Positions 13,227 to 64,000 of a DNA stretch of 64,000 nucleotides are shown piece by piece (position 1 is the stretch's first letter; every line of letters starts with the position of its first letter). This DNA is from Acanthococcus lagerstroemiae. Its lineage: Eukaryota; Arthropoda; Insecta; Hemiptera; Eriococcidae. The stretch spans positions 54,520,122-54,584,121 of the forward strand of contig CM063108.1 in assembly GCA_031841125.1 (NCBI GenBank). Reading direction: 5' to 3'. The translations under genes and the position numbers were made by a program. The notes beneath the pieces were generated by a model. The model was given only the letters and a program-made list of their open reading frames with translations. It was not told the DNA's origin and made no database searches.

Positions 13227-14592
13227 TGAGAAGGTACTTCCCGTGTTGACGCAGCTGTGCCAGAGAACCTCAGGATACAGCAGTGAGGCCCGAAGAGTTA
13301 TGGTCAGCGGCTGCATCCAGAGTAGATATTACAATTGCAGCTCGTTGTACTACCACCGGGTACCCGAGCTGCGCTACCAGGCGGAACTGAACTAGATAGA
13401 AGAAGCGGTATAGCGTCAGCACGGAAAGGGTGGTCGTGATCAACGCGACGCCTCTCCTGGACCTGCTTGCTGATCTCCCAAAAATCAGTGAAATACCTGG
13501 TCGGAAGCGAGTTAAGGGTCGATGATTGGCGACACTTTCCCCGCGTTTGGTCCTTCCTCCAGCGAATAGCAGAGTTAGCTCCACCAGGCGACCATCGACG
13601 AGAGGAACTGTCGATGGTGGATCAACACGGCGGTGGCGCAGTGGACACAGGCGCTGTTCCCTGACATGCGCGTTAGATTGGAACAGGAACATGAAGAAGA
13701 AGAACTAAGTAAGATGGATTTCTTCTCGGCGTAGGCTGTTTCGGGTCGTGGGTGCGTTGCATCGTACCTGCGCCACCGAAACCGCCGGGACAGCAACAGA
13801 TGCCCCTGCGGTGTTGGCCCGGCGACACCTCGGCATGTGTTCCGAGTGTGTCCAATGGCTGAAGCAAGGCCGGACATCTGGACAAGACTGAGCCGTGAGC
13901 ACCTGCAGTATATGCGAAGGGTCGTGAAGACCTTGTAGCGGCTCGAGAACCCAGAATATCTCGGAGGTAACGAAAACGAGCCCGGATGAGGCAGAAGAAC
14001 CCGGACGAGGGTGGGAGCAAACCCGAAAACGCCGGAAGAGACCATCCCCCACCGTCAACGTCACCGCTGCAGCAGCAGAAGAAGCCCTTGATTTCCGCCA
14101 ACCACGGGCAACGAACTGCGAACCCTAGTAAGACCATAGTAAGTCGGGTGTTGACTAAGTCCACCTCCTTCGTAGAGAGGCAGGGCACGAACGTGTCGCA
14201 TGCCCTAAGTTGCCGAAGACGCCGTCTATTATAAGAGAAAAGAAGACAAAACCTACTGTAAGAGCATAAGATTAAGATTATAAGGTCCGCCTCCCCTGCA
14301 CGGGGAGGTCCGATTTGGCCAGTAATGGATAAGAAAAAAATATACTCAAGTAAGCATGCAAGGCCCGCCTCCTCCATAAGAGGAGGTCCAGTTTGGCCAA
14401 ATGACAAGTGATAGTTGAATGTGAGGGGTTGTGGCACCCGGCGAGAAACCGTAGGGTAAAAGCTGGGCAAAACAGGGGACCCCATCTGAAACAGAAGTCT
14501 GTCATTTAAACGTATGATTGTAAACACATATTACTTAATACAAGGAGCCACCGACCAGGTGCAAAGTGGCCACCCCTTTGGGGGGGGGAGAT
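13227..14592 (+). mobile_element. 5'-truncated R1-like LINE inserted into the RTE element
   Basis: An 11-bp duplication ACTGTGGTATA (13216-13226 and 14593-14603) brackets this 1366-bp insert, as expected of target-primed reverse transcription. Plus-strand coding remnants include WTQALFPDMRVRLEQ followed by the terminal zinc knuckle CPCG..PATPRHVFRVCP, typical of the RNase H-to-C-terminus part of R1-type elements. The rest is 3' UTR of unusually high GC. A 284-residue minus-strand frame here is an antisense shadow. Confidence 0.8.
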
Positions 14593-34069: not shown

Positions 34070-37000
34070 TCAATTTTCTTCGGCAGCCAAAATAGGTCCA
34101 AATACAGGCATGTTACGTAGTTCTTCAGTCATCTCGGACACACTCCAGTTCATGATAATCTATAAAAAACAACGAAAAAAGCATTAGCTGAGCCACTGTT
34201 CATGCAGCTGTAACTCAAGACCGAGTGGAACAAATTCAAAGGGCTTATTTGTTTCGTTTAGTGATGTTGTTTTATTCCAAAACAGGTTCTGATACAGGGA
34301 GGTGTCAACTTCATTATTAAGAAAAATAAAGTTCTGATAAAATTCTTCCTCAGTGATCACAAAGGATACAACAGGACAGTCACAAAATTGATTTATTTTT
34401 CATCGAATAAATTAAACCAACTGACGACCCCTGTCCTTTCGGCGGCATACACAGGTTTGGTCGAGAGTCGAAGATTTCGACTTTCTAGATCACAACTTTC
34501 AACTCAGTTAGTTTTCAGAAACGGAGGTCAGGGCAACTAATAGACGGGCAAATCGCAGATAAAAAGAAAGCAACACATAAAGACACAGGAATAGAAGACA
34601 AAGAAGACATACAGACTGGCAGATAAGAAGACTGAATAGGAAGAGCTGAAGACAAGACAACTAGAGACAATAGATATACAAAGACACATCACCCAGCAAG
34701 TTAGCCAGATGGATATAAATTGAATAATATAAAACTTACAAAGCTAAAGAGATCCCGGCTCTGGACTCCATGTCTGCCTTGCACAGGACAAAGCCATGAA
34801 GGTCAAGCAAGCTGGAATGGCACCTGGATACTCAGTTGTAGCTCGCAGTTCTTTTCAAATGAGGGATTATCTAACATTTCTTTTCTTACTGATTGGCATG
34901 CTAGTGAGACAGCTGGCTGTTTCTTTTCTTTCGGCCTGTCTCACGAACTGCCTCTCAATTACACTTTCTGACTAGCTGGATTTCACAGCAACATATCTGC
35001 CTAACTTTTTAGATTTTAGGTGAGAAACTGGAGGTCTTTTCGGGGGGGGGGGGAGAAGACGAGAGCGTGACGCGGAAGCCAGGTTTTTATATCAAACAAC
35101 AACAACAAAAACAGAAAATAAACATTAAAAAAATAATGATGCATACCTTATGATCCAAATAGACTGCCGATTTGTCTGACTTCTTTCTAATGATTGAAAA
35201 CACCCCTTCATCTTCAATGAACCGACAAAAGTGTTTAAATTGGTCCAGCGATATAATAGCAAAATTCTTATCCGAACAAACCTTCACAAAGGCGTCGTAC
35301 AGCTAAACAAAGTTTTAAATTACATTCAGCATCACCTCGGTCTAAAAAGGGAGTCCAATTATTGGACAACTGATTCGCAACACCAAATTATCGTTAGATA
35401 TTAGCACGCGATGGCTTCGCATTGTAACTAACCTCTTTTACAAACAGTGTAGTCTTATTGGGTTTTTCGTTCAGGATCCGTAATGCGCAACATATTATCA
35501 GTTTCGGATAAAATACAAAATGATCTATCGAGTCGTTTGTTTTAGTGCTTTTGTAGACCTCATTGATAGTGAAAGGATCGATTTTGCATATTCCATCTAA
35601 ACAAAACGGACATCAAAACAACTGTACTGTGAGAAATCCGATACTATAAAAAACTTAGAATAGTTTTAAAATGAATAACTAACACGCCGTACGGCGAACA
35701 GAGAGTTGCTCATTCTACATCTACGCACTCAGAAAAGATAAAATCGAATGATTTCAGAATCTAGAACTCTGTCAAACAGAGACTTGTATTCACTGTGTGA
35801 TGTGAAAACGAAAAGCCCAAATTTGAAACAAAACGTATAGTAAAATATACCATTACTCTGCGAATGATTCCAATTTCTCACCGCAATCTCAACTCACAAA
35901 CTTTACGTGAACGTTTGCCCATTAACATTCGAAAATACTATTCGAAAATACTTCACATAACTGAAGACTTATCAAGATTTGACAACACAAAATACCAACA
36001 AACCTTCTGACGGATTCTCTAACGCATGGTGAACAGCTTCAGTGGCGACGAATAAAGCCTGTCTAAGGTTTCCAAAAGACGCAGCTTTCGCGGCCAACAA
36101 CTCGACTGCCGTTTCGGAGAATACCAGTTGGTTTTGTTCAACCTAAAACACCAAACACGTAAGAGTCATTAAAGATACGCGAACCATACACTTCACAGAT
36201 TTCATCGGATGTAACAGAAAACTCACAGAATTGAGTCTCGTCGTAAAAATATCTATCATTTCACTCTTATCGTAGGCTCTGAACTCCATCAAAACTGGCA
36301 TAATGGTTCTATTGTACTTCAATAGAGGCAATTTATCAATGAAGTTCTTTCGATTTCCAATGCCGATGAAAGCAATCTGTTGTTTTTTCAATTTTAGTTT
36401 CAGTTCGAACAGCGAATAGAAAAATAAACTGTCACCTCGCGGTATTAACGTGTCAAACTCGTCTAAAATTAATAATCTAGAAACATAATAATTCAATAAG
36501 TATCCAAACAGCGATATTATAAAATAGTATTTCTTATACTAATCAATCATCTCACATACTCTGAAATTAATAATTTGAAAACATTACAATTCCATAAGTA
36601 TCCAAACAGAGATATTAATGTTTCTCATTCTAATCAATCATCTCACATACTCTACGGTCGTACTTCTTAATCACCATAACATGTTTGCAACTCATTATTT
36701 TCTCGAACATGGTAGATTCATAACCGAAGTCGACAAATACATCAGACTCAAATTCGAAAGCTTTCAGAAGCTTACGGTTTGTAAACTAAGTACACTCATC
36801 AGACTAATTCATGTGTACTTACAGCGGCTTTCGTCCAGAATCTATCGATTTAACGACTTCGTCAATGCTCACTTGCTTAGAATTTGAGCTAGATTTCTTA
36901 TTGAATCGGGTAATTATTTCTTTATAAACAGCTGTCAGATTATTCAATGACATACAGTTCATGAATACCGTCTCAAAATTAGCACGTATCTGAGTGACAA

Positions 37001-37582
37001 GAGAAGACGTATTGAATCAAGCGGTTAAAAGAAAGTTAATCAACGTGTGGTACTAAAACAACTTACATATGAATCTTCACACAATAAAGTTACAGTTGCC
37101 GTTTTGCCGTGACCCGGAGAACCGTACATGTAGACTGACATGGACTTCTGGTATTCAATGCACTCTCTCAACAATTCATTCAGCTGATCAATTTGTTTCT
37201 GTCTACCCGGCAATGATGTTGGTACATCGTGGGAAAGAACATCTAACATTTGCCTGACTTCCTCATCTGCAAATTTCCGAAGAAGTAGATACCCGCATTA
37301 ATATACCCTATTAGACGAAATCAGTTACTGAATGCGAGAATACTTACCCAAGGTGAGTGGAACAGATTTCGATGCTGGTGCTGTCGATTTCGTGTTCGAT
37401 TGTTTCCGTTTCGGTGCTGCTGATTTTGGAATAGATGGTCTCGATTTTGATGTTGCTGATTTGGTGACAGACTGTTTCAATGTTGACGTAACTGATTCGA
37501 TGTTAGCATTTTTCGCTTTTAAAACCGCTGATCTGGTATTCTTTGCAACTTTAAAAGGTAACTCTCGTTGTCGCGGCGCCAT
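34070..37582 (-). CDS. CDC6: CDC6, replication licensing AAA+ ATPase (8 exons, 466 aa)
   Basis: CDC6 binds ORC at origins in G1 and, with CDT1, loads the MCM2-7 helicase. Exons (minus strand): 37582-37348, 37266-37067, 36989-36823, 36476-36227, 36142-36004, 35596-35433, 35302-35147, 34159-34070. All introns are GT-AG and the total is 1401 nt in one frame. The protein has a Lys/Ser-rich disordered tail (about 1-80) with an RELPF sequence at residues 6-10 that fits a cyclin-docking RxLxF motif. It then has LPGR (97-100), Walker A GSPGHGKT (127-134), Walker B LILDEFD (202-208), a sensor-1 Asn in GIGN (238-241) and sensor-2 Arg in GNLRQA (308-313). A winged-helix domain fills about 330-466. No SP/TP sites are seen in the tail, which is unusual for CDC6. 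Length is at the short end of the family. ORC1 and ORC4 are the related alternatives, but both are found separately nearby. The model looks intact. Confidence 0.88.
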
Positions 37583-38644
37583 AGGAAGGATTAATCAGAG
37601 CACGTAGCAAAAATGGGTGTTCTGATCACTTATTGTGATTTTAAAACAATAGTCAGTCAATTTAAAATAAGTTTTCGAATGAAAATAAAAGCAAGAAACA
37701 CAAAACGCTAAACGCACTTCGAACACTACAAACTACGACAGAGAGAAACACAATACCAACTTCGCCATTAAGAGGGTGAGAAAGCGCGGGTTTTTACGAC
37801 GACTGGTAGCTTTGTAATCAACAGATGAACAGCTGGCGTTACAACCTTCGGTTACAACTTACAAGTTTCAACGTTTCTACTGGTTCCTCCTCTGTCAGTG
37901 TTGTATCAGAGAGCATTAAAAAAAGCTGAGTCGGAGAACGCTGATAATGAATTACACCTTCGGAAAAGGACCTTAAATTTGATTTCTATAATATCTCTTT
38001 TCTAGGGCATTATGAAATTAATTCTAGCCGTGATTCTAGCCAACTGAAGTGTCGCTAAGTTAGGGGCAAGAATGATTGTTTATCCTTTTCCTGTTATCAT
38101 TCATGTTCCGTTGCCCACAACTTATCACAATAATCAGTTTCCAAAAGCCGCTTAGCCGCTAGGCGCCAGAATTTAGCTATGGTTTAAAACTACGTTCTAT
38201 GTACTCGTTTTCTTTTTTTGTTTTCATCTGTAAAGTCGGCAAATGGCAGTGAAGATAGGATTTCATTCATTTCTTATATCCTGACCGGTTTCAGTTCCTT
38301 CAATCCTGATTTAATATTGCAGTGGTGAGTACCTAATATTTCCCAGAATTTGTGCCTCTGGTACTGCTCGAACCTCGAAGAGCATATCAGTTGATATCCT
38401 ATGCTCGCAAGGGTTTTGTAGCAGAGCATGAACGAGAGTGCATTGTGCCGAGTACCCTCATCACTTCATCGCATTTTCTCCGTCGTGTTCATTCATGTAT
38501 CGAAATCAATCGAATCTTGAACCAGGGCTGATGTGTAATTTGTAGCAGCGTATTAAATTTCTTCGTTCGCAATACATACATTTACGCAGAAAAAAAATTG
38601 ATCTGCTGTACGTTCATGTTCTTGAAAATATTCGTAGATTTACC
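37583..38644. promoter_or_regulatory. Shared divergent CDC6/ORC4 upstream region
   Basis: This 1062-bp gap separates the CDC6 start (minus) from the ORC4 start (plus), so both promoters must lie here unless there are upstream non-coding exons. It contains a GC-rich patch around 37781-37790 (AAAGCGCGGG), loosely like an E2F site but not an exact consensus. No TATA box or repeat was recognised. Co-regulation of the two licensing genes is an inference from layout. Confidence 0.5.
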
Positions 38645-40443
38645 ATGGCGAGCCTTATAATTGACTGCCAAAAGTGTATTGAAGATGCAATCATGAGTCA
38701 AAATATTGAAGCTTACGAAACTGAGAGAACCGAAGTACAGCGCAACATTCTGGAGGCCATCGACTATGGAAAATCCTCGTTCATTCTCCTCATTGAACAA
38801 CAAGGCAGTGGGATAAAAGAGGTTCGTATTCTTCTACTTTCATTTACAGTTGGCTTACAATAAAAACACATAATTGAACTTCGTTCTCTTTCCAGGTGGT
38901 AAAAGACATTTTGAAAGAAATTACTACCAAGTACACAGGTGCTTTTAAAAAAATTAAAATGAACGGCTACTTGCATGAAAATGATGAGGTGGCTCTGAAA
39001 CACATCACGAGGAAGTTGCACAGCGAAGAATCGATTGAAGGAGAGTTCTTTGGCTCTCTCGATGGTAGTTTACATTTATCATGTTCTTACGTACGCAATA
39101 CTGAGCGTTGATCTGTGCACATGTCGAATATTCTTCAATTTTAATTCTTACAGATCATGTACAACATGTAATGAAACTTCTGCAAGAAGGAGATGAAACT
39201 TCAAGACCATTAATATTCATACTCGATGAATTTCACGCATTTTGCGAAAACGCACAACTGCTGATTCACAATTTACTGGATGTAGTTAATTCAAAAAAAG
39301 TGAGTTGAATTTTAGCGGCCGACATAATTTTTTAGAGCTGGTTTTCTTTTTTGCATTCGACCATTGCCAGTTTCTAATGCGGCCATGCTTAATATTACTT
39401 TCTATTCAACATTCTTTAGTTTCTGTATTCAAGTTGCCTCTTTTTCAGACCCCCGTATGTATAATCGGCATGACAACAAACATAAGTTGTCTTCAGAAAT
39501 TACACCAACGCACTGCTTCGCGAATAGCAAGTAATATACGAATACTGGAATCGAAAATACACTCCAAAGAGCGACTGAAACTGTTTCACACCCTGCTTAC
39601 TCTGGAAAATAAAAGTAAACTCCCAAAGCCTTTCACAAACGAATGGAATAACTCTGTAAAAAAGTTATTTTCTGATCCAGAATTCATTCAAATCGTAGAA
39701 GATGCGATGAGAAATCAAAGCGAAGAGATATTCTCTCACTTCATGGTAAGTTAAGTAAACGAAATACATTTTCATCCTATCAAGTACGCGCTGAAATTCA
39801 ATACTTGGACCATGTGTACTTCCGTAGGTCCGTTGTGTTCGCAGTATTAATGAAAAACATCCAACTCTTTCTGTCGAAGAAATCAAACATGTGATTCAAG
39901 GAATGCGTAATCCCATCGATATCAGTGGACATCTAAGAAATCTAACGATTGTTGAACAATGTCTTGTAAGTACCCGTTAAGGTTTCTTCACTGTAGAACT
40001 TTATTTCACATTATACAACTGTTGAATTATTCCAGATGATCGCTATCTGTCACATTACCTGTGATGCAAAACCTATCCGGCATGACAAACCCCAGTCATT
40101 TAATTTTGAAACGGTTCATTCGAAATTCAAAAGTGTCACTGACAAATGGGGGCATCCCCGCGTCAGCCGAGAAGTAGCTGCGTATGCATTTAATAAGCTG
40201 AAGGTGAGTCTCGAATTTAAAACGTCAGTTGACGAGAAAAATAATGAAATGTAATCCTAACTGTTTGGATTCCAGCAACGGGGCTTCATCGCATTGGAAA
40301 ATGATATCGTATCTGAGACACCTGACTTCGAACCATACATATTGAGAGTACGAGAACAAATAATAAAAGACGCCATCAGGTCTGCTCCTCATGCAACCCC
40401 TGAAATGCGAGAGTGGGTTGACAATTCCTTAATGTCTCAGTAA
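38645..40443 (+). CDS. ORC4: ORC4, origin recognition complex subunit 4 (7 exons, 420 aa)
   Basis: ORC4 is an AAA+ subunit of ORC. It sits beside ORC1 and supplies the arginine finger to the ORC1 ATP site. Exons: 38645-38821, 38896-39064, 39154-39299, 39449-39745, 39828-39965, 40036-40203, 40276-40443. They total 1263 nt in one frame, with introns of about 70-150 nt. The start ACCATGG is a strong Kozak context. Family landmarks are Walker B FILDEFH (137-143), a sensor-1 strand CIIGMTT (168-174), and a double-arginine stretch QRTASR (184-189) matching the usual ORC4 finger region. Residues 300-420 form the winged-helix end, with a C-terminal W..NSL pattern typical of ORC4. Oddity: the Walker A position reads EQQGSGIK (51-58) instead of the usual GPRGSGKT, so the lysine and threonine are lost without any length change. 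Exon 1 ends at a weak donor (GTTCGT). Length is close to the usual ~435 aa. Confidence 0.87.
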
Positions 40444-40903
40444 TCCTTCCGAGAAAACTTATGAAACGTGGAGTTTTAGTGAGGTATTATATTTCTATTT
40501 TATAATATAGAATTTTCAAGTGAAGTACTATTTTTCTGTTTCCAAGTGAAGTATTATTTTTCTATTATCTTCGTGTCACTATTATGATGATAATTATCGA
40601 ACAGTTTAACAGATTGAAAGTCTGAATTCTTTATGAATAACTGAATAATCAATTAATTATATGATCTTGTTTCAAAAGTCATTCGTGTGACGTTGATCTA
40701 TATACGCCAATAATGCAATACAGATATAGATTTATAATTCCGAAGGATCGCTGAACTTATTTTTGATGATAATATAACCCTAGGTAATGAATGTGAACCT
40801 TATTGGGAGGCTTCAAAATTGAATATTGCAATGCATATAATATAGACGTAATTTCAAAGGTTTAAATAGTTCCTGAACTCATGTTTGACAACGATTTGAC
40901 CCT

Positions 40904-41045
40904 AAAGGCCGATTTCACAATGCCTGGCCAACTTTTAACGACCGGATAATATTATTTTTGAGGCATCATCTCACTGGCCATGTGACCTTGACTGGAACGC
41001 TATCCGATAGTTAAAAAGAAAACGGAATATTGTACAATCAGTCCT
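40904..41045. mobile_element. Small MITE-like inverted repeat
   Basis: The left arm 40904-40950 (AAGGCCGATTTCACAATG.. ending CGGATA) and right arm 41001-41045 are imperfect inverted copies of about 45 bp. No target duplication was settled. Confidence 0.5.
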
Positions 41046-41130
41046 AAGTAATAACCTGTAGCACGTATGGAGGGGGAAGGCTGAACATTTAATACATCAG
41101 CAAAATGCTACAGGGATATCGTTTCACAAA

Positions 41131-41328
41131 AGTAGTAAGAGCGTCACTTGATACCACTTTCTGCCCCAGGGGGAGGGGAAACTAGTCTGAAAGGACACTA
41201 GTATCGAAAAAAATATACAACACAAAAACAGATCGACCTACTAACGCATAGTATATAATACCCCATGATGGGCTCTACAACCCCCTGAGAGGGAGCAGAG
41301 ATTGGTATCAAGTGACGCTCTTACTACT
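41131..41328. mobile_element. MITE with AGTAGTAAGAGCGTCA ends (198 bp)
   Basis: The first 26 bases from 41131 match the reverse complement of the right end at 41328 exactly (AGTAGTAAGAGCGTCACTTG..). The arms go on to GC-rich stretches of about 20 bp that also pair in part. No coding capacity. The superfamily is unclear because the flanks show no obvious duplication. Confidence 0.75.
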
Positions 41329-42404
41329 CAGAAATATCACCGAACTCCGTTCTGATGACAAATTGATGCTTAAGTGGAAAATTTTGAAACCTATTGGGGG
41401 CGGGGGCTCAACATTGATTATACAAATAAGTACAACAGAGAAGTTTTGAGCTGATCGATCTGTATTCCTTATAGTTGATTATTTTTATCATGTTGTGAGC
41501 TAGCTGGTATTTATTTTCAAATTACAGGAATGAGTGTGCCTTCACAATTTTTTATTGTAAAAGTTACTCCGAGTAAAGGGATTTCGTCCGCCAGCTACAC
41601 ACGTGGTGCTTGCTAAGTTGAAGGTTAACAGTAAGATGTAAGTCCTACTCGATCGCCACAGTCGATAAGTGGTTCAGACATGCTTGGGGAAGGTTCTCGG
41701 TAAATTTGAGGTACCTTATTTCGACAGTGATGTGGTCGTCGGTGAATAGTCCGGTTTCGATAGGCGATGGTATGACAATATGCCATTAATTAAGGAAGCA
41801 GTGAATACATAAGACGCTACCTTAGGGTGATTTGTTTTTTTGGACGAATTCACATCATGTTGGTTAAGTAGGTATTCGTATCCTCAGATTCCGTATCACC
41901 TTTTGATGGGTTTGAATTCTTGCATTCTCGGATTAGGAATTTTCGTTCCCAAGTGTAATGAGGAATAACGTGGCCAATGACAGATTTCAAATTCTATTTG
42001 CATTTCTGGATAATCCTTACCCACTGTGAAGAATACTTTAATCTGACCCCATAAAAAAAAAAAAGAATTTTAAAACAAAAAATGGATTCCAGATTCATTT
42101 TAATCTCAGCAAATAATACTTAATGACAGCCACATCTGTATAATAATAATAATGAAAAATCACCACATATAAAATTATAAACTTGGTTTCAATTCGAATT
42201 TTTGTAATGAGCTTAACGAATACCGTTTAGGGCTAATAAACTCAATAATAAGCCTGAGTACCTGTTTAGGGTTGATATACATCTACATCGAGGAATAAAT
42301 AAAACTGCCAAGATTACAACAAAAAAAAATGGATAAAAATGACAGTTTGCTTAAAACGTGACGCTGATGGAAAAAATTGCAGCCGAGAATGAATGAAAGA
42401 TGTA

Positions 42405-45400: not shown

Positions 45401-46185
45401 GAGAGGCCAGAAGCTGAGAATCGAACAGGGTACACGCAGATGAGTAGTAATTCACACCCGGAGCTACACAAAAGCATCGCATTCAACATGGGAATCTGTC
45501 CCCTCGTTTGAGACATAAATGGTAGAACGTTAACTCCCAGATGCTTACATCAAATTTCGGAATTTTCCCTTTATCAGCTTCAATTTGCAGCTTCTTCACA
45601 ACTCTTTCTACTGTCGTTGTCTTGCCAACTCCCGGTGGTCCGAACATATACAGAAGTCTGTAACCAATCGATTCCAGGGCATCAGTGACATTCACCAGCA
45701 TCACAGTTCAATTCGCAAGTCTAATAACGTACCTTCCATCTTTGTTCTTGATTTCGGATGACAAGAATTTATAGACGTGTGAGAATTCTTTTTCTCGACA
45801 TGGTAACGTATCGGGCACCTCGGACACCTGTAATGCAAGTCGGGCTTCGTCTCTAGGGGTTACCGGTGTACCTAGAGGACCGCTACGCCTGTGCAGCGAC
45901 GGTGTTAACGATTTCACGTTCTGAAAATTAATTTATTCGGTCTTAATAAACGAAGGAGAACTTAGACATCAAGTTCGAGGCATAGTTATAGAGGAAAGAG
46001 AGCTCATTGAAGTTCTTAATCTACCAGCTCATCACCCAATCTTCCACTAACACTCGTTTCGCTCATCCCGGCAGTTCGCATCTCAAACTATGACCATCAA
46101 TTTGCTCCCTATCAGCTTACTCGTTTTTCTTTCCATATTTATATCTACCTCTGTCCGCTTATCTGACAAGACAGCTACACCCTGC

Positions 46186-46233
<48 letters not shown>

Positions 46234-49200: not shown

Positions 49201-52200
49201 TATCCATAGATAGAGCTATAGAGCAGCATATTTCGGAATATTTCGACTTTCCATACGAATAATGTTTGGACTAATTTAACGATTAAAAAAAAAAAAAGTA
49301 ATTAAAGTTCGTATTTGTATTTACGAATACTTTGACTAACAACCACACGATGTACACTGTAGTCCGAGGCGATAAAATTGCAAAAATGGGCACTGACGGG
49401 AGAAAGGTTGGAAGTAGCGAGTCACTGATCATTCGAGTATCCAACAATTTGAATTGTCGAAAGTGTGTTGAAAATCTGCGAGATCAGCCGATTAAAATTT
49501 TACAAAAACACTAAAGTAGGGTAAAGTTGAAAAAAAAAATCTTTTACAGTGCCATTACATTGCCATTGCCTAAATTTCAAAGTTGCCTACTGGCAAGACT
49601 AGTCATAATCAAAATTCTACCTAGAATCAACTCGTTTTTTCAATATTCGTGATTTCCATAAGTTTTTGTGATTTTTGTGCTTATACATTTAAAATTATGA
49701 AAATCGCAAATTAACAATTATCGAAAAATAATTTTATTATTTGATTTTCGGTGTATCTCTCAATGATTTAAAAATCGCTGACTTCAAATCATTTAGTTTT
49801 TGATTTGGCTCCTCTATCTAGGGCTCAAAAATTTTCTCTTGGCGTTGAAACTAACAAGTACAAAATTTTTATAAGAATATTAACTACTGATTTACCCAAG
49901 AGCTTCAAATTTTGAGGATTAGTACATAAAATGAAAAAAAATGAAGTTACCGGGTTTGAAGGAAAAACTAACGTTTCTAAAACGTATTTTTCATACTGAA
50001 TTCGGAGAATCACGAGATCACCTGATTGTGAACAAATCGTTTAAAAACATGCATCGATAACACCAAATCAGAGTCAACTCAGCTTTTTTTTCGATTCAAA
50101 TGAGATACTGTTCCAAAACCAGTCTTAAGTTCTGTTTTTGTCGTCGGAATGGGGTAATGACATCCTCAGCTCATCAATATCGCTAGTCGATTTGCAAAAA
50201 TATAATTTTCTTTCATGTTATCACAATAGCTGCTAATAAAAAAACTTATTTCACCAGAAAAAGTAGTGGGCACATTTTCTATTTTTATTTATAAATATTA
50301 TTATTATTATTATTATTATTTTTTTTTATTTTTTTTTCAAAATTGGTTAGTGGAGTCCCCAATGCATCGCCGAGTGGCTGAGTATATCTTTGTCGCATTG
50401 CAAAAACATAACTTTCTTTCATGTTATCACAATATCTGCTAATGAGAACGCACATTTCCAAAACTCCCAACAATATTCATCCATTCACTACGGGTTCAAA
50501 TTCTATAACAGAATAATTCCAGTATTCTGGAAGTTTTCTTTATTTCTCAAAATATTCAATCAGATTATTAGTGAAAGTTTGTTTCCAACTGAAATTTAGT
50601 CAAGTAATTTGCTTAGAAATAAGCTAACTGAACAGATTTGTAATTTTTATTAGATCAAATCAAACTAAACTGAGTAGGTAGCCAAATTGGCAACATTAGG
50701 ATAGAACATGCCAGAGACATCTCCATACACTGCTTCGTATATTGCGTTAATCAGGCTTGTAGCTTTGCTACTTTTCCAATATTATTTCGAAAAAGCGGAG
50801 TTTTGGGTAAAAAAATGGAATCAAAAGAAGAAAAGAATGTAGCACAAAAAGAAATACCAGAATTTATGTATGATGAATTGAAATTAACTTAAAAATGACA
50901 AGGCGGAGGGACCTGATGGCATAAGAAACGAAACAATAAAAATATTCCAAGATACCATCATATCCCCGCTTGCCACAATATTTGATGGGATGAGATCAGA
51001 AATAATTCCAGTTCAATGGCTAGTGGCAGAAATAATATTATTATACTAAAACGGGGACAAGGAAAATATGTAAGCTAGTATTGACCAATAAGTCTAATCT
51101 CCAACATTAACAAAATATTTATGGCTTGTTTAAAAAATAGAACATATTATGTACTTAATGGACGAAAATGAAGCGAAAGAAAACGCAGGATTTAGGAGGG
51201 GGTTTCCTACAATCGATAACATCTTTGTAATTAATCAAGTCAATGAGAAGACAAAAGAGTTTAATTTAAAAACCAAAATGATGTTTCTAAATTTTGATAA
51301 AGCATTTGATTCTATCGAACACGAATATTTGTGGCAAGCAATGGAGGAACAAGGCATAGCGACAAATACTATAAAAATAATGGGAAAGCTTTATAACCAA
51401 GCAAAAGCATAATATAAAGATGGATAAAAAAAAACGAGGGAATTCAAGATTGGCCGAGAGGTACATATGTCAAGAGGATCTAATATCACCGAATTTATTC
51501 AGCTGTGCTTTGGTAAAGATATTAAGACAATTAAAATGAGAAAAAAAGGTATCTGTAAACGGAGAGACATTCAATAATTTACGTTTTGCGGATGATGGGG
51601 CATTAATTGCAAAAGATGCGAATGAACTGGAAGAAATGGCACAAGAACTAACAAATGAAAATAAAAAAGCGGGGTTAATTACACTACCCAACAGCAAAAA
51701 AGCCGCAAGAACGAGAGTAGCCGATTCTAGAAGTATTTTTCACGCTGAATTCAATGCCGCTTTTTGTTTTTCTTAATTAGCTCTCCTTTTCTCGTAAATT
51801 CATTCTGAATTATTTCCCGTAATTTCCCTCTCGTGTTAGAAATATTAGTGAATGTGGCCACACTGCATGTATCACAAAACAAACTCGCCAACACAGTGAC
51901 GCGTGTGAACGTGTTTTGACGTTTTGATATCGAAACGATCTAAACAGTTTCAACTGATTCTAAGATTTTATCATTAACGATGAAGTGATGGAACAACAAT
52001 TTTGAGGAAGGCGATCTCTTCAGTGAAAAATTAACGCCTTTTCATTCCGGTATTTACAGTTTATTGTTTCTTTTACGAAATGTAAGTGAACTAGATAAAT
52101 GTGTTCCGACAATAAATTTGATGAATATGTGTTCAATGCCCAAGTATTCATGATAATCACAACGCTCGTTGTTGAATTGGAATAATACTTACGGAACACA

Positions 52201-55200: not shown

Positions 55201-58200
55201 GAATTGTTTCTATAATTGCTGATCGCGAATATCGCACTCTTTCCACCTGGCTCCAGTTGCGGATAAAGGGAAGGGGATGTCCCCCCTCGAAATATCTAAA
55301 TCTGTCTATAGTGACCGAGATTCGTCTATACATATATTTTTCACAATCCCCTCTGAAATGACTTTCTGTATCCGCCCCTGCCTGGCTCCATTTGAGGTGT
55401 TAGAATCCAAGAAAATATTATAATTAGATGCCAAATTCCTCGGCATTCATAACTTCGTTTTGCTTGAAGACAGAGAAGTGCTGATAATGTACGAGTACGT
55501 TTTAGAGTGAGTGGGGCTGAAGAGAAAATTTTATTTTGCCAAAAAGTACCGAAAACAGTGTAAATTCCAAACACAGTCAAAAACGCCGAAAAATAACAGA
55601 AAATGCCATTTCAGACCAAATGGGAAGAAAAAACCAGAAATGTTCGCACAATGGTAGCGCTTTTTCCAGGAGTTTGTGTGAATGTACCAGCAAAATTTGA
55701 AAAGTCACGTCATATAGTTCTACATTCTTGGATACCTAAAATAAAGAAAAGGAACATTTATCCACCTTCCTTTCGATTTTTATTTGAATTTTCGGGAGAT
55801 TTTTGCGTTTTTGCCGAATAATGCCGAAAGTACTACTTTCAGCGCCGAATCATCAGCTTGTTAGTGCCGAGGAATCCGATTTCTAGTCATATAATAAACT
55901 TCGAACTTTGGGGGCCCAAATCGGAGTTTATCAAACATTTAATGCGTCTATGAAGATAAAGAAGGACCAAAATACCCTTATTTCGATAGTTTTTCATTAT
56001 TATTTTTTAATCAGTTTAATGCTGTCTTTTTCAAGTTGTCTTCTGCGACCTTCTTTGCGACCCAGGACAAGAAATCCTAATTTTTCAGGAGCGATTTTGT
56101 AACACCACTTCACACAAGCATATGAAGTCCGTGATGACAATTTCGTACAAAATCTAAAACTGTTATTATTCTTATCGTGAAACGTTGATGGGTTTACGAG
56201 GGACGATTCGGAGATAAGCCCCCTTCACGGCTGTCTGAAATAGTATTTCCGTAGTAATTCTCCTCAAAATTGATAATTATTTCATCATTTTTCTCAAGAA
56301 TCAAAACCGCGAAATCTACTTCCATCATTGAATTCTGGAACCAGACCTGTTCAAAACTGTGATATTTCGCGAAGATGGATCAGCATTTCCATGAAGTGCA
56401 CTATGTCGCCAAACTCGTATTTGATGTTGATTCGATTCGAAAATTGTACCACCTAAGAAAGATGGAGACACGTGGAGACGAAATTTATACGAATTACATT
56501 ATAAATATGCAATATTACGTTTAGGTTAGGAAATTCTTTTGACATTTTGAAAACTGAGATACGTACGTGAAATGTAGGTGTTTAGGACCCTGTCATTTTT
56601 TGGGATTTTAAATTTTGAGTAGACCGGGCGATTTACTGTTCAGACAGATATAAATATAAAATTCTGAAATTTTGAGCTCCGTCGAATAAAACACTACACC
56701 GTTCATCGGGTCCTACCTTTTCTTTCGGGAAAATATAAAGGATTTTTTAGTTTTCGTTCGTAGGAGTAGATACAAAGAAAACAAAAAGTCGGCGGATACG
56801 GGGGGTCGAGTCACAGTCAGGTAGGTATTGGAAGTCTGCATTCTGCATACCTTTAGTGATTTAAAGTCGCTTTCATCCCATCTAGACTTCCGCAACAATT
56901 TTCCGAGAAACTTCTCGATATCGCTTTAGGGGTCTACACTAATGTTCGTGGTGCGTGTGTTCATCAACGTAACTAAGTGGATAGCCTACACTTCATTTCT
57001 CAGATTTTTTTTTTTTTGTGTTCAGCATGATTTTTTTCTCCTGAAATCATTTATATACAATATCCAAAACAACATATTGACAACGCTGTGACATCGGACC
57101 ATTAAGTTTTCCATCTTCGTACAAAGCATGAGAATTTGACACGACAGTGGACAAAGTAGGTCAACGACGATAGGACAAACCTCACAAAACTGGAAACTGT
57201 GGTCATTTATGGGTTCTGAATCAGCACCGAACACGTGAATATCTTCAGACGTACTATGGACTTACTGCAGTCCCGAAATTCGAGAATTAGACACACGCTG
57301 GACTGTATTGAAAGTTGGCAGTATTATTTTCATGCAAATTCCTTAAATTTCGGGCGTCATCAACGAGAATTTCAAATTTCTAAGTGGAACCAAATTGAAG
57401 TGACAAAAATACATCATACTGACTGTTTCAGATTCCAAAAATTTGCAGTAAGTCTAAATGCTGACTGGTTAATAATTTACCACGGTGGAAGACTAAAAAA
57501 CCGGAGACTCATTTCTTAAATCGGCTGCACGGATTCTTAAATAAGAAGTTCAAAAAATAGTACTTCTTCACGAATCCCCGATTTTTACGACGGATATGTT
57601 ATCAATAATCTGACGAAAATAATTTCTTCTCCAACGGAACAAAGTTTAGACTAAAATCGTATCAAACTTTAAAATGACTCTCCTTCAGAATTTTGTTCAC
57701 CAACTCGTTACCCGGAATGCTAAAAATATTCAAGGAAAGAAAACAAACTGTTCTTAGAGAATTCAGGAAAATAATTCCTAATCTGTAAACAAATACCAAA
57801 TGTCAATCCTATGCAGTCATATTCTGTCATATTCTTATTTACAGACAGTAGTTGGGTCTGAATTAACAGAAACAAGATTACAACAATTCAAGACTGTATT
57901 ATTTACATGGGAGCGCGAGAGTAAGAGTGGATACAGAGAAGGGAAAGGGCCTTTCTCCGAGAGAAACTAAGCGATAACAAAATGAATGTATTGGTCTGAA
58001 AACTACCTAAATTGACAGACTGATATCGCTTATTTCTTAATGAAAATCCTGAAAACTTCTTTATCCAAGTCCATTCGGACTTAAAAGAATAGTGGCTGAC
58101 ATCTGGTGGATTTTTTTTGCAACTTGCATGTAGGTAAAACGGAGCGCTGTTACACGCACTACTATTAACACACACAGCCTGCAGAGATCCATTTTACCTA

Positions 58201-61200
58201 CATAGCACAGTAGCGATGCTAGCACGCCACCGACTCTTCAAGTCCGAATTGCAACGACCGTCTTTTGTAAAAGCCAAGAAACTTCTTACGGGTGGTACCA
58301 AAGGAGAAAATGAAAAAATGTCCAGGAATGAAATAGTGCGGATGTATAGTAGCGGGTCGAGAGAGAATAATTAGCATTTACTCTATCCGCAGGACTGGAA
58401 CTCGCTGCATAAATCATAACTTCCATGTTTTAGCCCATAAGACATGTGTTAATGCATGACTTCATGAGTTAGTTTCACCTTTCTGAACTTGAATAGGGGT
58501 AAGAAAAAAGTTCGCATCTTCAAATCCTTCCCAATATTTTCTGCTCTTCTTCAGACTGATAATCCTTCAACACTCACACTCAAGTAAAACTCGAATGTGA
58601 GTTAGTTTCATGATTTTGATAAGTTCTCGACTCAAAGGATCACTTTTCGACCTCGGATCCAGATTTTACTCTTTTTCAAGTCCAAAATTTAAATACCCTT
58701 ACTCAAATCTTACTCAAGCCTTTCTCGGATCTGAATTAGTTTTGCTTTTTTGAACTTGGGAAAGGTAGAGAAAATGGCTGCATCATCAAATCCTTCCGTA
58801 CTATTTTCCGCTCTTTCCGAGACTGATAGTCCTCAAACACTCATCTTCTTTCTAACTCAAATGAAACTCGAATCTGAGTTAGTTTCATGCTTTTGATAAG
58901 TTCTCGACTCTGAAGATCACTTTCCGACCTCAGATCCAGATTCTACTCTTTCAATTTTTCCCAAATCCAAAATTTGGATACCCCCTCCCCCCACTCAAAT
59001 TCCATTCAAGCATTCCTCGGATCTGAGTTGATTTCACTTTTCTAAACTTGGGAGGGGGTAAGGAAAAAGTTTGCATCATCAAATCTTTCCTCAGTGTTTT
59101 CTGCTCTTTTCGAGACTGGTAGTCCTCAAACACTCACCTCCTTTCGCATTCAGGTAAGACTCGAATCTGAGTTTATTACATCCTTTTGACAAGAACTTGA
59201 CTCTGAGGATCACTTTCCGGTTTCAGATCCGAATTCCACTAGTTTAATTTTTCCTCTAGTCCAAAATTTAGATACCCTTACTTAAATCTCATCCAAGCAT
59301 TTCTCGTGTCTGAGATAGTTTTACCTCTTTCGAATTGGTAGGCGGTAATGGAAATGTTTGCATCATCAAATCTTTCCTCACTATTTTCTGCTCTTCTCAG
59401 GACTGGCAGGTAATCAATCACTCTGAGGATCACTTCCCGACCGCAGATTCAGATTTCACTCTTTCAGTTTTTCTCCAAGTCCAAATTTAAAATATCTCTA
59501 CTCAAACCTCACATAAGCATTTCTCGGATCTGATTTAGTTTCATCTTCCTGAACTCTGGAGGGGTAAGGAAAGCGTTTCCATCATCAAATTCCACCTTTC
59601 TGAACTTTGGAGGGGGTAAAAGAAAAGCGTTCCCATCATCAAATTCTCCCTCACAATTTTCGGTTCTTCCCGATACTGATAGCTCTCAAACACTAACCCC
59701 TACCTCACTCAAGTAATACTCAAATCTGAGTCAGTTTCACTTCTCTAGTAAGTCCTTACAATGGGTTAAATATAGACTTCCAATTTATGATGTTTTAGGG
59801 ACCAATGTGAAAAAATCGCTAGATGCCTTCATTTACAGGAAATCCAAAGAGCTTAAATATTTTCTAGGACATACTTGACTATAGTTATAGCCTGCACTTT
59901 GATTTTAATCCTCCACTTTTCCCAATTTTCGACCCAAAGAATTTGAAAAAATTTAACATTAATATAATTATATTAATTTTATCGATTTTTCCCATTTGAT
60001 AGGCTACTACCTATAATTATCATCTTATTCCAATTATTCATTTATTAATTATCCATTCGAATAAATAATACCACCCAATAGATAATAATAAATTACCTGG
60101 ATTTAATTTTTGTACATTCATAAATTTGAATTTAGATCAATCTTACAATTCTTCGTCTTTGAAGTTCGCGGGCTAAATTTCGTACGATTTTTCACCAATC
60201 AAATATACCAATGATAAGACTCAGTCATATCATTCATAAGTCTGTAATTTACGGTATCTACGAAATATCAAACCAGGAATAATTGGAGGAGTAACTTCCC
60301 GATCACAATTTTTCCAACAATCAACCATTTAAAACGCAGAATTGCAATCACGAGTTACTTTTGTCTTCAGTTATTTATTTCGACGATGCCTAACCACAAG
60401 AAAAGAGTCGAAGCTGCCGTCTTTCTGACGGTAGAATCTTGTACCAGAAATACAGACCCTCTTTCATTGATTAAGAAGGTGATTTATTATTGATCATCTA
60501 CCTCAATCCCATAACAAGAAAGAATAACTATAAATGTTTTTGTACTTTGACTAGGTGCATGTCTATATTTTTCTTCACACGGAAATCTCACCCAACAGCA
60601 ACCTGCTATGAATTGAACATGGATGGCGACGTGAAAAGACACATCTATCGTTTAGTCAGTTGACAAGCCCCTTCAGTTAAATGTATATCTACGTACCATG
60701 CGTACTTTTCTCGTTTCCATTTCACAGAAGGAATAATCACCAGAAAGGGATAAAAACGTATTAAAACCAAAATAGTGAACAAACAACTAAGCGATTCGAA
60801 CGCTCAACATTCTGACAATCGAAATGCCAAAGTCAATTACTTTTCGCTGTTCAACAAAGGATTATCATTTATCAGTTCCTAAAGAAAGTGACCGGAAATT
60901 ACATTTTGTAAACCAGTCTCCTTCGTGCCATTTAGCGACTTGGCGTTCAGTAGACAATCGAGTTAAAGTCCATTTTACATTAAGGTTACAGTATTCGGGA
61001 TCAAAATACAAACAAAAACGACACTAAGGGCAGATATTAACATGCTAAGACCGAGGAACCGAGTGAATACAATAACATGAAGAATAAAGAGGTGCCGTAA
61101 TATAACTTGTAGATTCTGAGAAAGTCCGGACCTTTAGTAAACTCGAGCGACGCTATTCTGCGATAAAGCGATATCTGTGGCAATGATAAATAAATCAAAA

Positions 61201-64000
61201 TGTCTTAATTATGCATACTGTTACTGACAGCTACACTCAACCTTGTCACGTAATTAATAATCGTAAACGCATATGCTTTATGCTCCAGATGCTGGAGTGA
61301 TTGGCGTCTAGAGCAAGCCAGATTATAGAAAGAAGTCGAATAATTTCCAAAATTAGAACACGAATATCGAAACTGTTTTGATCTTCGGAGTTGGAAAACT
61401 GAGTTATGAAACGTGTCAAAATATAGAAGACCCCTACATTAACGAATTGCTCAACTTGGTACATCTCTTCCCTCTTAACTTACAACCGAACCATTAACAA
61501 AAAAGTTGGAATTCTAATAATACAGACAGAATATAAAAGAAATGTATGAATTGAATCTATATACCGTATTTACTATAACTTCATCACACACACCACTCTC
61601 AAGTATTCTATTTTCAGCTCTTAACTCTGTCATCCGGCCATGGTAAAGATCAGAAGGTCATTGATAATTACGGCAGCCTGAAATCATTTTTCGAATGATC
61701 TTTTGGATTTAGATGCCCCTGGTTGGATTCAATCTAGTCTCATCATCTGAATGTAAAACTATCCTCGTACCGCAAATCTATCTGAAACTAATTCAGGTCT
61801 GCAATCCATGAAATACATATGCTACACAATTCTTACGAACTTTCTAATCAAATTTTCAGTTCACCATCAGCTTCCTCACAGCTATAGTTATTAATGCATT
61901 CAAGAACCTTGAGTTACACTTGTAATTTGGAGCAGTTAAAATACTTCACACGCATTTTGAGAGAAGCAGTTTCTCGAAAGAGTTGAGAAAACTATGAGAA
62001 GCCCGAGACGGTTCAGAGATCAAAGCCATCACAAAATGTCTTTGTGAAATAGCATAATGAATAATTTCATTGTTTTTCTCACTACATTTTGCAAATTGTT
62101 CAAACTTATAAGAAAGCAGTGACTGGCATGATCTAAGACAAGAATACGAAAATTACAACAATCACGATCTTGATTGGTCTACAAAATTGTCCATACCACA
62201 AGACTAAGGCCCGTGATCATTGTACTAACATGGGGTTAATTAGGAACATAGAAACACGTAACCTTGGGGGTTTTTCCTTATTTAGGATCATTTTCTAAGT
62301 GACTTAACTCATCCCTGGGAAAAAATAAAATAAACATGCATAACTCGGTGAATATGTCTTACGTCCCAGGCCAGACCTGCAACCTTTCACCGAGTTGATT
62401 TTAACTTGAATACTCCGGTTCAGGCCCGTAGCTAACCGCTTGTGTGTGCCAGGACATTTGATATTCAACCAGAGCATGACGGCATGAGCAATAAGAGTAC
62501 CCCGATCTGCAAAATCAGCGTCAAAAGACACTCTTGACACTCTTTTTGAGTCAAAATAGTTTCGGTCCTTGACGATCACGTAGGCTCCGCCCACTTGTAT
62601 AGCAGAATTGATTGCAAAAGTGTGTCAAGAAGTCAAAAATGCGTCGGAGTGCTCTGATTGGTTGAAATATTGTCAAAATGTCAAAATACCGTGTCAAAAT
62701 TGTGTCAATCCTTGTAGATCGGGACAACACAAACATTTTTTTGCTTTCTCCACTCGCATGTGCTGCCTAGACTGTTCTGGAGTCAACTACGGGCCTGCCC
62801 CGGTTTCATTTATGCTTGAAGTTCACTTTACCTCTTCAGAATGAATTCCCCGCTCAGCCAATTTTTTTAAGGGGACTTCGTCATCCGAATCCGTCCAAGA
62901 TGGTTTTTCACATTCCTGAAAACGTAACAATGATTCATTCGTAATAATTTTCTTCCTCATTCTAGTGAACTAATTCATCTCGTCAAGAAGCCGCCTGATG
63001 GCGTTAATATAACTACTTCAATAACCCATGTAAACCGTTATTACATAAACGCATGAAGCTCATTTTACCTCTTCGGAAACAGGTCCTAAATCTGTTAATG
63101 TTATCAAGGGCACTTCGTCATTAGAAGCTGTCCGAGCCGCTTCTTCACATTCCTGAAAATAGAAAAACCATTCATTTTTTGCAATTATCTTCTCAACACA
63201 CAAAAAAACTTACTCCTGGACGACATTCAATTACCTGTTCTTCAACTAATCCTTTTTCGAGTGGTACAATAGGCTCATAATTAGATGGTAATTCCAATTC
63301 TTTGTTTCCATTTGGGGTTTCAGCAGTTTCTGTTGAGATCAATACTGGAATATTTACTTGAAATTCGTGAAGACCGAAATCCAGCTTCTTTATTTTAATG
63401 GGCGTAACAGCTTGACTACAAACAAATGAATTACTGTAAAGTTTGGAGCACTCGTGAATAATAACACGCGATGAATTAACCATACCTTCGTTCACTTTCA
63501 CAATTCGTTGATTTCGTCGGTGTTTGTCTCTTGGACTCGACGACCCATTGATCATTTGTTCTGCGGGACTTCATCGAACCGTACTCATCATCTGACTCGC
63601 AACTTCGTTTCCTCTTTCTATTTAATACCATTTTGATGTTCGACTTGTCTCCTAATTTTTCTGAGTTTTCTGCTGGGAGTTGAAACTCTGAATTTGCAGT
63701 ACAACTGTTCTGAGTAACAAGCACAGATGGAATACGAGTGACAGAGTCCGTTTTTTCCTGATCCGGATGAAAACTACCGTCAGGCCCACCAGAATGAAAA
63801 CTGGACGAAGTGGTTTCCACAGGTTCAACTGTTTCTGGGAAAATGTCACCGCTAGAACAAGGAGCCGGCTCTTTCACACGTAAAATAGTAATCAACGTAC
63901 GATCAAAACTACGTCTGATGCGTTCCGGTGCTAAGGAATAGTTTTCACAATTACAAGAATCCGATTCATCTGTCTGATTTCGATGAGACAAATTTGGATC
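42405..64000 (-). CDS. ORC1: ORC1, origin recognition complex subunit 1 (5' part outside window)
   Basis: ORC1 is the ATP-hydrolysing AAA+ subunit of ORC. Visible exons (minus): 64000-63486 (partial), 63415-63214, 63152-63069, 62915-62832, 48707-48393, 45920-45733, 45657-45549, 45312-45136, 45047-44880, 44789-44662, 44569-44408, 44311-44184, 42568-42405. Together they give 807 residues in one frame. The first five visible exons are low-complexity linker, rich in acidic, SP/TP and RR stretches. The AAA+ part starts with the ORC1 signature VPDTLPCREKEF. It continues with Walker A GPPGVGKT (exon 45657), Walker B VVDEFDF across the 45136/45047 junction, sensor-1 TIANT, and sensor-2 Arg in GGDARLAL (exon 44569). 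The winged helix ends in L.ID..DVQLAL. Donor 63235 is a frame-compatible alternative to 63214. A BAH domain, if present, lies beyond 64000. Introns of 1.6, 2.5 and 14.1 kb are repeat-filled. Confidence 0.87.
42569..44183 (-). other. ORC1 last intron with AGTCTT-rich block 4
   Basis: The 1615-bp intron lies between the two last ORC1 exons. 43555-44060 is an AGTCTT-rich degenerate array (GAGTCTTAAATGGTCTTGA and similar words). No other feature was recognised. Confidence 0.55.
44790..44879 (-). other. 90-nt stop-free ORC1 intron
   Basis: GTTGAG at 44879 and TTTCAG at 44790 bound a 90-nt stretch with a pyrimidine run. It is a multiple of three with no stop. Removing it joins NRM to SKVEN with spacing close to that expected between the ISxR region and the following strand of ORC1. 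Retaining it would add 30 residues. The weak donor makes intron status likely but unproven. Confidence 0.6.
45921..48392 (-). other. ORC1 intron with poly-A tract and AGTCTT-rich block 5
   Basis: This 2472-bp intron carries an uninterrupted A tract of about 40 at 46190-46231. From 46920 to 47930 it carries an AGTCTT-rich array whose words here often read GAATCTGAATAAGTC and AACGAGTCTGAATGAG. No gene lies inside. Confidence 0.6.
50850..52620 (+). mobile_element. RTE-like LINE fragment (RT domain), interrupted
   Basis: RT remnants in order: NDKAEGPDGIRNETIK near 50900, FRRGFPTIDNIFVINQV and FLNFDKAFDSIEHEYLW (51149-51412), LRFADDGALIAKDANELEE near 51590, and, after an insertion, NGKPIQVVHEVVYLGQIISF near 52520-52590. 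The FADD catalytic motif survives, but stops and shifts are many. It covers the RT part that the copy at 12.4-15.2 kb lacks. Confidence 0.75.
51723..52417. mobile_element. Unclassified terminal-inverted-repeat element (695 bp) inside the RTE copy
   Basis: 51723-51754 and the reverse complement of 52386-52417 match over about 32 bp (both contain GTATTTTTCACGCTGAAT, and both start GATTCT). The insert separates RT remnants FADD.. and ..YLGQ of the LINE. The true outer limits and target duplication could not be fixed, so the superfamily is open. Confidence 0.65.
52590..52699. repeat. 110-bp near-perfect palindrome (foldback)
   Basis: Arms of about 53 bp begin AAAACTTGGTTTAAAATAAT and pair almost fully with the other half around a 4-nt centre near 52643-52646 (ATCC-TAAA-GGGGAT). 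It sits right after the YLGQIISF remnant of the RTE copy, so it was inserted into that LINE. It could be a snapback MITE. Confidence 0.85.
54355..54560. repeat. Third copy of the GGCGATGCACGCA repeat, GC-rich
   Basis: Shares GATGGTG..TATGGCGATGCACRCA, GACACCGCACCC, and (with the 15449 copy) GAAACTA.CCTTTCG and ATCGCATCAG in the same order. This copy is the most GC-rich, standing out from its AT-rich surroundings. Its nature (SINE, LINE 3' part or other) is not settled. Confidence 0.6.
55254..55380. mobile_element. 127-bp hAT MITE family B with perfect 8-bp duplication
   Basis: The ends are CAGTTGCGGATAAAGGG and, reverse-complemented, CAGGGGCGGATACAGAA. CCTGGCTC occurs exactly at 55246-55253 and 55381-55388. 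It has no coding capacity. It lies in the large ORC1 intron. Confidence 0.93.
58455..59755. repeat. ~288-bp tandem satellite, about 4.5 units
   Basis: The landmark CTGAGTTAGTTTCATGCTTTTGATAAG-type phrase occurs near 58592, 58878 and 59168 (286- and 290-bp spacing). A paired half-unit phrase (GAGTTAGTTTCACTTTTCTGAAC) occurs near 58467, 58733, 59024, 59310 and 59531. Each unit is thus made of two related halves. Later units are shortened. The array lies in the ORC1 intron. Confidence 0.8.
62421..62797. mobile_element. 377-bp hAT MITE family C
   Basis: It starts CAGGCCCGTAGCTAACC and ends, reverse-complemented, CAGGCCCGTAGTTGACTCC. Flanks CTCCGGTT (62413-62420) and CCCCGGTT (62798-62805) agree at 7 of 8 bases. 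Subterminal GTGTCAA / TTGACAC words recur inside in both orientations. It lies only 34 bp downstream (in the ORC1 sense) of exon 62915-62832. Confidence 0.88.
62832..63152 (-). repeat. Tandem pair of duplicated 84-nt ORC1 exons
   Basis: Exons 63152-63069 and 62915-62832 are both exactly 84 nt, both phase 0, and both begin GAATGTGAA and end GAAGAG before GTAAA. The peptides share the pattern ECE....T.S.DEVPL..L...G..SEE over 28 residues. The intron between them is 153 bp. This is an internal exon duplication within the disordered ORC1 linker. Confidence 0.85.

Follow-up and report, generated by a model that had tools for sequence, protein, structure and literature searches.

CDC6, ORC4 and ORC1 are consecutive in the genome of Acanthococcus lagerstroemiae, a real and unusual arrangement of three diverged licensing genes

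To our knowledge, genes whose products belong to one complex are seldom adjacent in animal genomes, and we take ORC1, ORC4 and CDC6 to be unclustered in the human and Drosophila genomes. Divergent genes are regarded as a bidirectional pair when their transcription starts lie less than about 1 kb apart. In C. elegans naming, Y39A1A.12 and Y39A1A.13 are presumably names from one clone, which would imply tight linkage. These names belong to orc-1 and orc-4, respectively, and cdc-6 is C43E11.10 (PMC8863262, Table 1). As judged from the consecutive sequence names alone, the ORC1 and ORC4 orthologues of C. elegans seem to be closely linked, as they are in the locus described here, whereas cdc-6 lies outside the orc-1/orc-4 neighbourhood. 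With assumed clones of 100-400 kb and 100 Mb in total, the chance of a shared clone is 0.1-0.4% for the named pair and up to 1.2% for any of the three pairs. The word operon is not in the main text of PMC8863262, and a literature search for an orc-1/orc-4 operon in C. elegans returned nothing beyond this paper. In human, the divergent partner of ORC1 is PRPF38A, according to the available text of PMC3815023. As in our locus, one ORC gene thereby stands in a head-to-head pair, but the human partner is a splicing factor, whereas the divergent pair described here is ORC4 and CDC6, ORC1 being convergent with ORC4. The fungal Rad16-Rad7 pair, one of a set of conserved eukaryotic neighbours (PMC2871058, available text), is likewise made of side-by-side genes of one complex. 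In the main text of that paper, ORC and CDC6 are missing and the one licensing entry seen is MCM2 with mlo2, whereas our block comprises three genes and comes from an animal. A CDC6-ORC4-ORC1 cluster was not named among the literature matches listed, most subscription papers lying outside the search.

We analyzed a 64-kb stretch of the A. lagerstroemiae genome, hereafter the window (C3:54,520,122-54,584,121), located on a contig of 74,507,843 bases; the assembly totals 658,055,089 bases and has 438 contigs. A first-pass annotation of this DNA had described CDC6, ORC4 and ORC1 as immediate neighbours, with CDC6 and ORC4 head to head 1.06 kb apart and ORC4 and ORC1 tail to tail 2 kb apart. As presented in Table 1, the gene models bear out this order and these orientations, CDC6 (-), ORC4 (+) and ORC1 (-) being consecutive and all having open frames, and the coding ends lie 1,062 bp and 1,961 bp apart. 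All 21 introns within the three models are GT-AG, with one weak donor after exon 5 of ORC1 (GTTGAG). On both strands, no open frame of at least 70 aa lies wholly inside the convergent region, and the block from the stop of CDC6 through the first ORC1 exon regarded as firm spans 14,638 bp. The consecutive trio of CDC6, ORC4 and ORC1 is confirmed as a real, unusual arrangement.

Table 1. Gene models, exons and intergenic regions of the CDC6-ORC4-ORC1 locus (window positions).
Feature	Position	Strand	Remarks
CDC6	37582 (start codon) to 34070 (stop)	-	8 exons, 466 aa plus stop, 7/7 introns GT-AG
CDC6 exons	37582-37348, 37266-37067, 36989-36823, 36476-36227, 36142-36004, 35596-35433, 35302-35147, 34159-34070	-	
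Divergent intergenic region, between CDC6 and ORC4 start codons	37583..38644	.	1,062 bp
ORC4	38645 to 40443	+	7 exons, 420 aa plus stop, 6/6 introns GT-AG
ORC4 exons	38645-38821, 38896-39064, 39154-39299, 39449-39745, 39828-39965, 40036-40203, 40276-40443	+	
Convergent intergenic region, between ORC4 and ORC1 stop codons	40444..42404	.	1,961 bp
ORC1, AAA+ and winged-helix part	48707 (at least) to 42405 (stop)	-	9 exons, 512 aa plus stop, 8/8 introns GT-AG
ORC1 exons	48707-48393, 45920-45733, 45657-45549, 45312-45136, 45047-44880, 44789-44662, 44569-44408, 44311-44184, 42568-42405	-	
Possible upstream ORC1 exons (disordered region)	64000-63486 (open beyond window), 63415-63235, 63152-63069, 62915-62832	-	open, phase-compatible chain; candidate assignment

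The identity of the three proteins was assessed by comparison with solved structures, for which the queries were draft joined models that at exon edges included some residues out of frame or from introns, and by Pfam, which was run on the final models. The best PDB match of CDC6 was the Cdc6 chain of 7jgr (125.6 bits, 2.5e-35; best ORC1 chain 56.0 bits), that of ORC4 was the ORC4 chain of 7cte (102.3 bits, 2.5e-28), and that of ORC1 was the ORC1 chain of 5uj7 (178.2 bits, 2.4e-51; best CDC6 92.4 bits). All six matches of the ORC4 query at E<=0.001 among solved-structure sequences were ORC4. We take the 7jgr chains to be from Drosophila and the 7cte chains to be human. The 5uj7 structure is human, as stated in the available text of PMC7450096. 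In the final models, Cdc6_C in CDC6 (26.6 bits, cut-off 25.1) and ORC4_C in ORC4 (66.9 bits, 2.2e-18, cut-off 25.3) exceeded their cut-offs, as did AAA matches. The CDC6 product is an AAA+ protein with Walker A GSPGHGKT, Walker B DEFD and a C-terminal winged helix, and is closer to CDC6 than to ORC1; in ORC1 the ATPase motifs are intact (GPPGVGKT, VVDEFD and the sensor-2 GDAR). A protein search with ORC1, in which 7,990 candidates were scored, gave 24 relatives, the best being those of Cimex (E 2.2e-64) and Halyomorpha. The ORC4 search, which detects only relatives with exact five-residue words in common, gave a single one out of 1,863 candidates (P0001; 42% identity, 98% query coverage). For CDC6, we obtained 21 relatives among the 7,998 candidates that were scored, those sharing most words; by name or domain list all look like archaeal-type Cdc6/ORC1 except a moth ORC1 (P0015), and because nearly all are of this type the search tells little about CDC6 relatives.

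We then compared sequence identity over aligned AAA+ fragments. Window ORC1 was 44% identical to Cimex ORC1, against 61% between Cimex and Drosophila; window ORC4 was 30% identical to Drosophila and 36% to human, against 66% between Drosophila and human; and window CDC6 reached 32-33%, against 46% between fly and human. Judged by these alignments, ORC1, ORC4 and CDC6 are all unusually diverged in the window. In a 17-row tree, window ORC1 groups with the true bugs Cimex and Halyomorpha (support 96/87), a placement that is unsure because its end branch is 5.02 versus a median of 0.41. In a 15-row AAA+ tree, the ORC1 branch is 1.13 versus 0.11-0.43 for the other four ORC1s, and the CDC6 branch is 2.12 versus 0.43 and 0.62. 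Since the ORC1 branch is 5.02 in one tree and 1.13 in the other, how large the acceleration is varies with the data set. By contrast, Rpt6 of the same assembly matched its best PDB chain with 776 bits (380 residues) and was nearly identical to it by eye; a single conserved housekeeping gene is a weak comparator. According to the available text of PMC12759066, ORC6 has been lost in Sternorrhyncha and other hexapod groups, and this reported loss is a possible setting for the fast divergence of ORC and CDC6.

Strong divergence of all three proteins is also what would be seen if the block were an artefact, that is, an assembly misjoin or a set of diverged pseudogenes with functional genes elsewhere. 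The first-pass annotation had raised both concerns. However, the window and 40 kb of fetched flanks (four stretches) contain no N inside a 74.5-Mb contig, so that the stretch is contiguous as far as the assembly allows. At E<=10, all seven ORC4 matches in the assembly are the window ORC4 exons and all eight CDC6 matches are the window CDC6 exons, with no second ORC4 or CDC6. A Cimex ORC1 query gave seven matches at E<=10 and no second ORC1: five correspond to window ORC1 (E 1.6e-6, 2.6e-4, 0.13, 0.41 and 0.64), one to CDC6 exon 2 (1.17) and one to a chance-level match on contig C2 (8.96). With this query, a canonical copy at another locus should outscore the diverged window ORC1. All candidates from the first look were scored in these searches (7, 12 and 13), the first look being loose and not exhaustive, and the case for single-copy status of ORC4, CDC6 and ORC1 in the assembly is strong without being absolute. 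As no second ORC4, CDC6 or ORC1 was found, the three genes are unlikely to be a cluster of pseudogenes; in addition, the frames are open, the introns are GT-AG throughout, and the source of P0001 encodes an ORC4 that is 42% identical over 98% of the query. The artefact explanation is largely refuted, and we regard it as highly improbable.

Other licensing genes were located in the same assembly. ORC2 is on C7 (two of two matches), and the MCM domains gave 28 matches, 27 of them falling, as we group them, at eight places on C2, C4, C5, C6 and C9 and one on C11. As ORC2 and the MCM-domain places lie on other contigs, licensing genes in this assembly show no general clustering. The ORC3_N and ORC5_C profiles had no match at E<=10 across the assembly, a profile absence that does not prove gene absence here. 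ORC3 and ORC5 genes are expected in an insect, and divergence or exon splitting is a likely cause of this null result. On C11 (L001, L008), long open frames contain genes with a bacterial look, presumably FtsH-like and Lon-like, and because these frames look bacterial the assembly may include a symbiont genome.

The surroundings of the trio were also inspected. In the 34 kb left of CDC6, two of the four open frames tested are retrotransposon pieces and two have no Pfam family. Non-LTR-like retrotransposon remains with reverse transcriptase and RNase H domains are found at 4934-6650 (-), and a GC-rich stretch at 13440-14270 has segments that score fairly high for coding on the plus strand and, on the minus strand, long frames that overlap, including one of 285 aa without a Pfam match. 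A Pao-type retrotransposon fragment (Peptidase_A17, RVT_1; L018:8118-9059) lies just left of the window. To the right, the next gene encodes a poly(A) polymerase on the plus strand (PAP_NTPase 1.1e-26, PAP_RNA-bind 6.6e-18; L017:1481-4544, corresponding to about 75.5-78.5 kb in window coordinates).

The ORC1 model ends short of the N-terminus, and PF01426 (BAH) is missing from the domain lists of two bug ORC1s (P0023, P0024). An earlier reading in which ORC1 fills 49-64 kb was not borne out: against fetched ORC1 N-termini, the candidate exons at 62832-64000 reached a best E of 0.19 versus 0.007 for a reversed-sequence control, and so match no better than this control. A resemblance of these exons to the VTPIK stretch of Halyomorpha ORC1 was seen by eye only and was given no weight. 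Two of them are tandem 84-nt phase 0 exons (62832-63152; ECEEAARTASNDEVPLI... and ECEKPSWTDSDDEVPLK...), and the tandem copies are 71% identical over 152 nt with a spacing of 237 nt. The interval of 49-62.8 kb contains repeats and a reverse-transcriptase-like fragment, which lies at 51134-51409 (+), between ORC1 and the possible upstream exons, and is below the Pfam cut-off. At 58.4-59.7 kb, a repetitive stretch with a coding look was ruled out as exons, being a tandem repeat with indels between copies; it is apparently non-coding (58400-59720), with a spacing of mostly 220-293 bp.

The first-pass annotation had stated that exon positions and phases differ among the three genes and had argued against a recent tandem duplication, and both statements hold. 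In the 15-row AAA+ tree, a single change suffices for each of the ORC1, CDC6, ORC4 and archaeal groups. Relative to a mark of 95/80 for strong support, the ORC4 and archaeal groups are above (100/100 each) and the ORC1 and CDC6 groups below (85/93 and 88/93). Pairwise identity within the window is 24% for ORC1-CDC6, 18% for CDC6-ORC4 and 13% for ORC1-ORC4, versus 30-44% for each protein against its own orthologues. The introns of the AAA+ region map to alignment columns 0, 74, 168, 265 and 312 in CDC6, 64, 147 and 203 in ORC4, and 49, 86, 175, 238 and 282 in ORC1. None of these 13 coincide, the closest being 7 columns apart with a different phase and 10 columns apart with an equal phase. A recent tandem duplication is ruled out by the tree and by the lack of a common intron; the genes are ancient paralogues, since each clusters with its own orthologues in the tree and the mapped introns have no position in common. 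The duplications in the ORC/Cdc6 families are known to be ancient. As all three genes belong to the Cdc6/ORC AAA+ group, they could in principle have remained neighbours ever since their origin from one archaeal-type Orc1/Cdc6 gene. However, the duplications are older than the split of the orthologue groups, the linkage must have survived here and been lost in most other lineages, and the orientations alternate with no introns in common. Such a relic array is very hard to credit.

In ORC-Cdc6, ATPase catalysis takes place at two sites, Cdc6/Orc1 and Orc1/Orc4 (PMC7450096 and PMC5291709, available text). By homology, the clustered trio would consist of exactly the partners that form both of these sites. 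In comparison with the solved ORC-Cdc6 structures (7jgr, 5uj7 and 8s0e), these are the same AAA+ proteins, and window ORC1 and CDC6 keep the Walker A, Walker B and sensor-2 residues, but the window proteins are strongly diverged and ORC4 is without equivalents of the Walker A lysine, R69 and Y174. In ORC4, the lysine of the Walker A motif (GxxGxGK[ST]) is missing, with EQQGSGIKE versus human GPRGSGKT (the exon parts with the diverged residues are 38793-38821 and 39260-39530). The R69 equivalent is Q, and the Y174 equivalent is H, as it is in P0001. Walker B is kept, as are the equivalents of the arginine finger R209 and the tether R205 (human numbering; LHQRTASRI aligned with LEKRVKSRF). In the available text of PMC5291709, the arginine finger is ORC4-R209, the tethers are R205 and Y174, R69 belongs to the P-loop and is conserved, and sensor 2 is ORC1-R720. 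Y174 is given there as conserved from yeast to mammals, and the ORC4 Walker B change D159A as having little effect on the ATPase activity of the motor module. The same text treats Walker A mutations of yeast Orc4 as non-essential, so that ORC4 family membership stands despite the lost lysine. P0001 keeps the GK of Walker A, and its following S/T, its Walker B aspartate and both interface arginines are missing. The two ORC4s have not lost the same residues, since P0001 keeps GK but loses the arginines and window ORC4 does the opposite. The proteins would probably work as in other animals, ORC1 being the ATPase, ORC4 supplying the arginine finger and CDC6 joining the ring. In the working state that we infer, the ORC1 ATPase would be active and ORC4 would be its activator, which may itself not bind ATP.

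We next considered whether selection could have gathered the genes recently and kept them together for G1/S co-expression, through a divergent CDC6/ORC4 promoter or a common chromatin domain. The three products act in one ring, and CDC6 and ORC4 are head to head within 1,062 bp, a distance between start codons and not between transcription starts. Human divergent pairs are enriched in genes for DNA repair and the cell cycle, but the partners are mostly in different pathways, as given in the available text of PMC3815023. Within 37583..38644, there was no match to TTTSSCGC, TTSGCGC or TATCGATA, that is, no full E2F or DRE consensus, and E2F/DRE control of this divergent region was not retained as a candidate; the short core SGCGC is present at two places, and TTTSGCGC occurs across the whole window at a chance rate (4 observed versus 2.9 expected). 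In addition, the ORC1 start lies beyond 48.7 kb, remote from those of CDC6 and ORC4, and ORC2 and the eight MCM-domain places are dispersed. Overall, selection for co-expression is an unlikely explanation of the block, and such a function of the arrangement itself is a conjecture. Slightly less likely again, in our view, is a licensing supergene, in which the subunits of both working ATPase sites are kept linked and co-evolving interface variants are co-inherited, in a setting of fast-evolving proteins and of an ORC4 becoming a non-nucleotide-binding activator of ORC1.

Ordinary rearrangements in the lineage could also have juxtaposed three unrelated loci, without selection or ancestry. In a random order of an assumed 15,000 genes, the named trio would be consecutive with a chance of about 3e-8, and any three of 14 licensing genes with about 1e-5 per genome, figures that take no account of how many complexes and genomes could have yielded a noticeable block. 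The chance is tiny for the named trio, but not so over many complexes and thousands of genomes, and the lack of a regulatory signal between CDC6 and ORC4 also fits with coincidence. Against it, C. elegans too appears to have ORC1 and ORC4 linked, and intergenic distances of 1-2 kb seem small in a genome of 658 Mb, in which the frames tested in the left-hand 34 kb were retrotransposon (2/4) or without a Pfam family (2/4). We consider juxtaposition by chance plausible, at roughly one part in three of our belief.

ORC1-ORC4 linkage is not unique to the window, because orc-1 and orc-4 of C. elegans carry the names Y39A1A.12 and Y39A1A.13, and it may be old because it seems to recur there. We therefore lean, tentatively and somewhat short of an even chance, towards a partly inherited neighbourhood, which we weakly favour over pure chance; it is rated slightly above the latter because of one outside species, C. 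elegans. Under a partly inherited neighbourhood, the ORC1-ORC4 linkage would probably be old, and CDC6 would be either an old member of the block that was lost from the neighbourhood elsewhere or a later arrival by rearrangement. Against this, C. elegans is the sole outside case, known by sequence names only and with cdc-6 elsewhere, and an ancestral linkage should occur in many insects. Drosophila presumably has no ORC1-ORC4 linkage. The eukaryote genome search covered the window's own assembly only. The choice offered by the first-pass annotation, between an ancient paralog array and a secondary gathering, leaves out this mixed case of a possibly old ORC1-ORC4 linkage with CDC6 apart. An advantage of the arrangement, such as a regulatory stretch common to CDC6 and ORC4 or reduced recombination between co-evolving partners, would be conjecture.

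With its diverged ORC4, A. lagerstroemiae provides a natural case in which to ask whether animal ORC depends on ORC4 binding a nucleotide at all. With a real trio of licensing-ring genes, half hinted at in nematodes, the question of whether such genes cluster by reason or by accident becomes testable on genomes that are already annotated.
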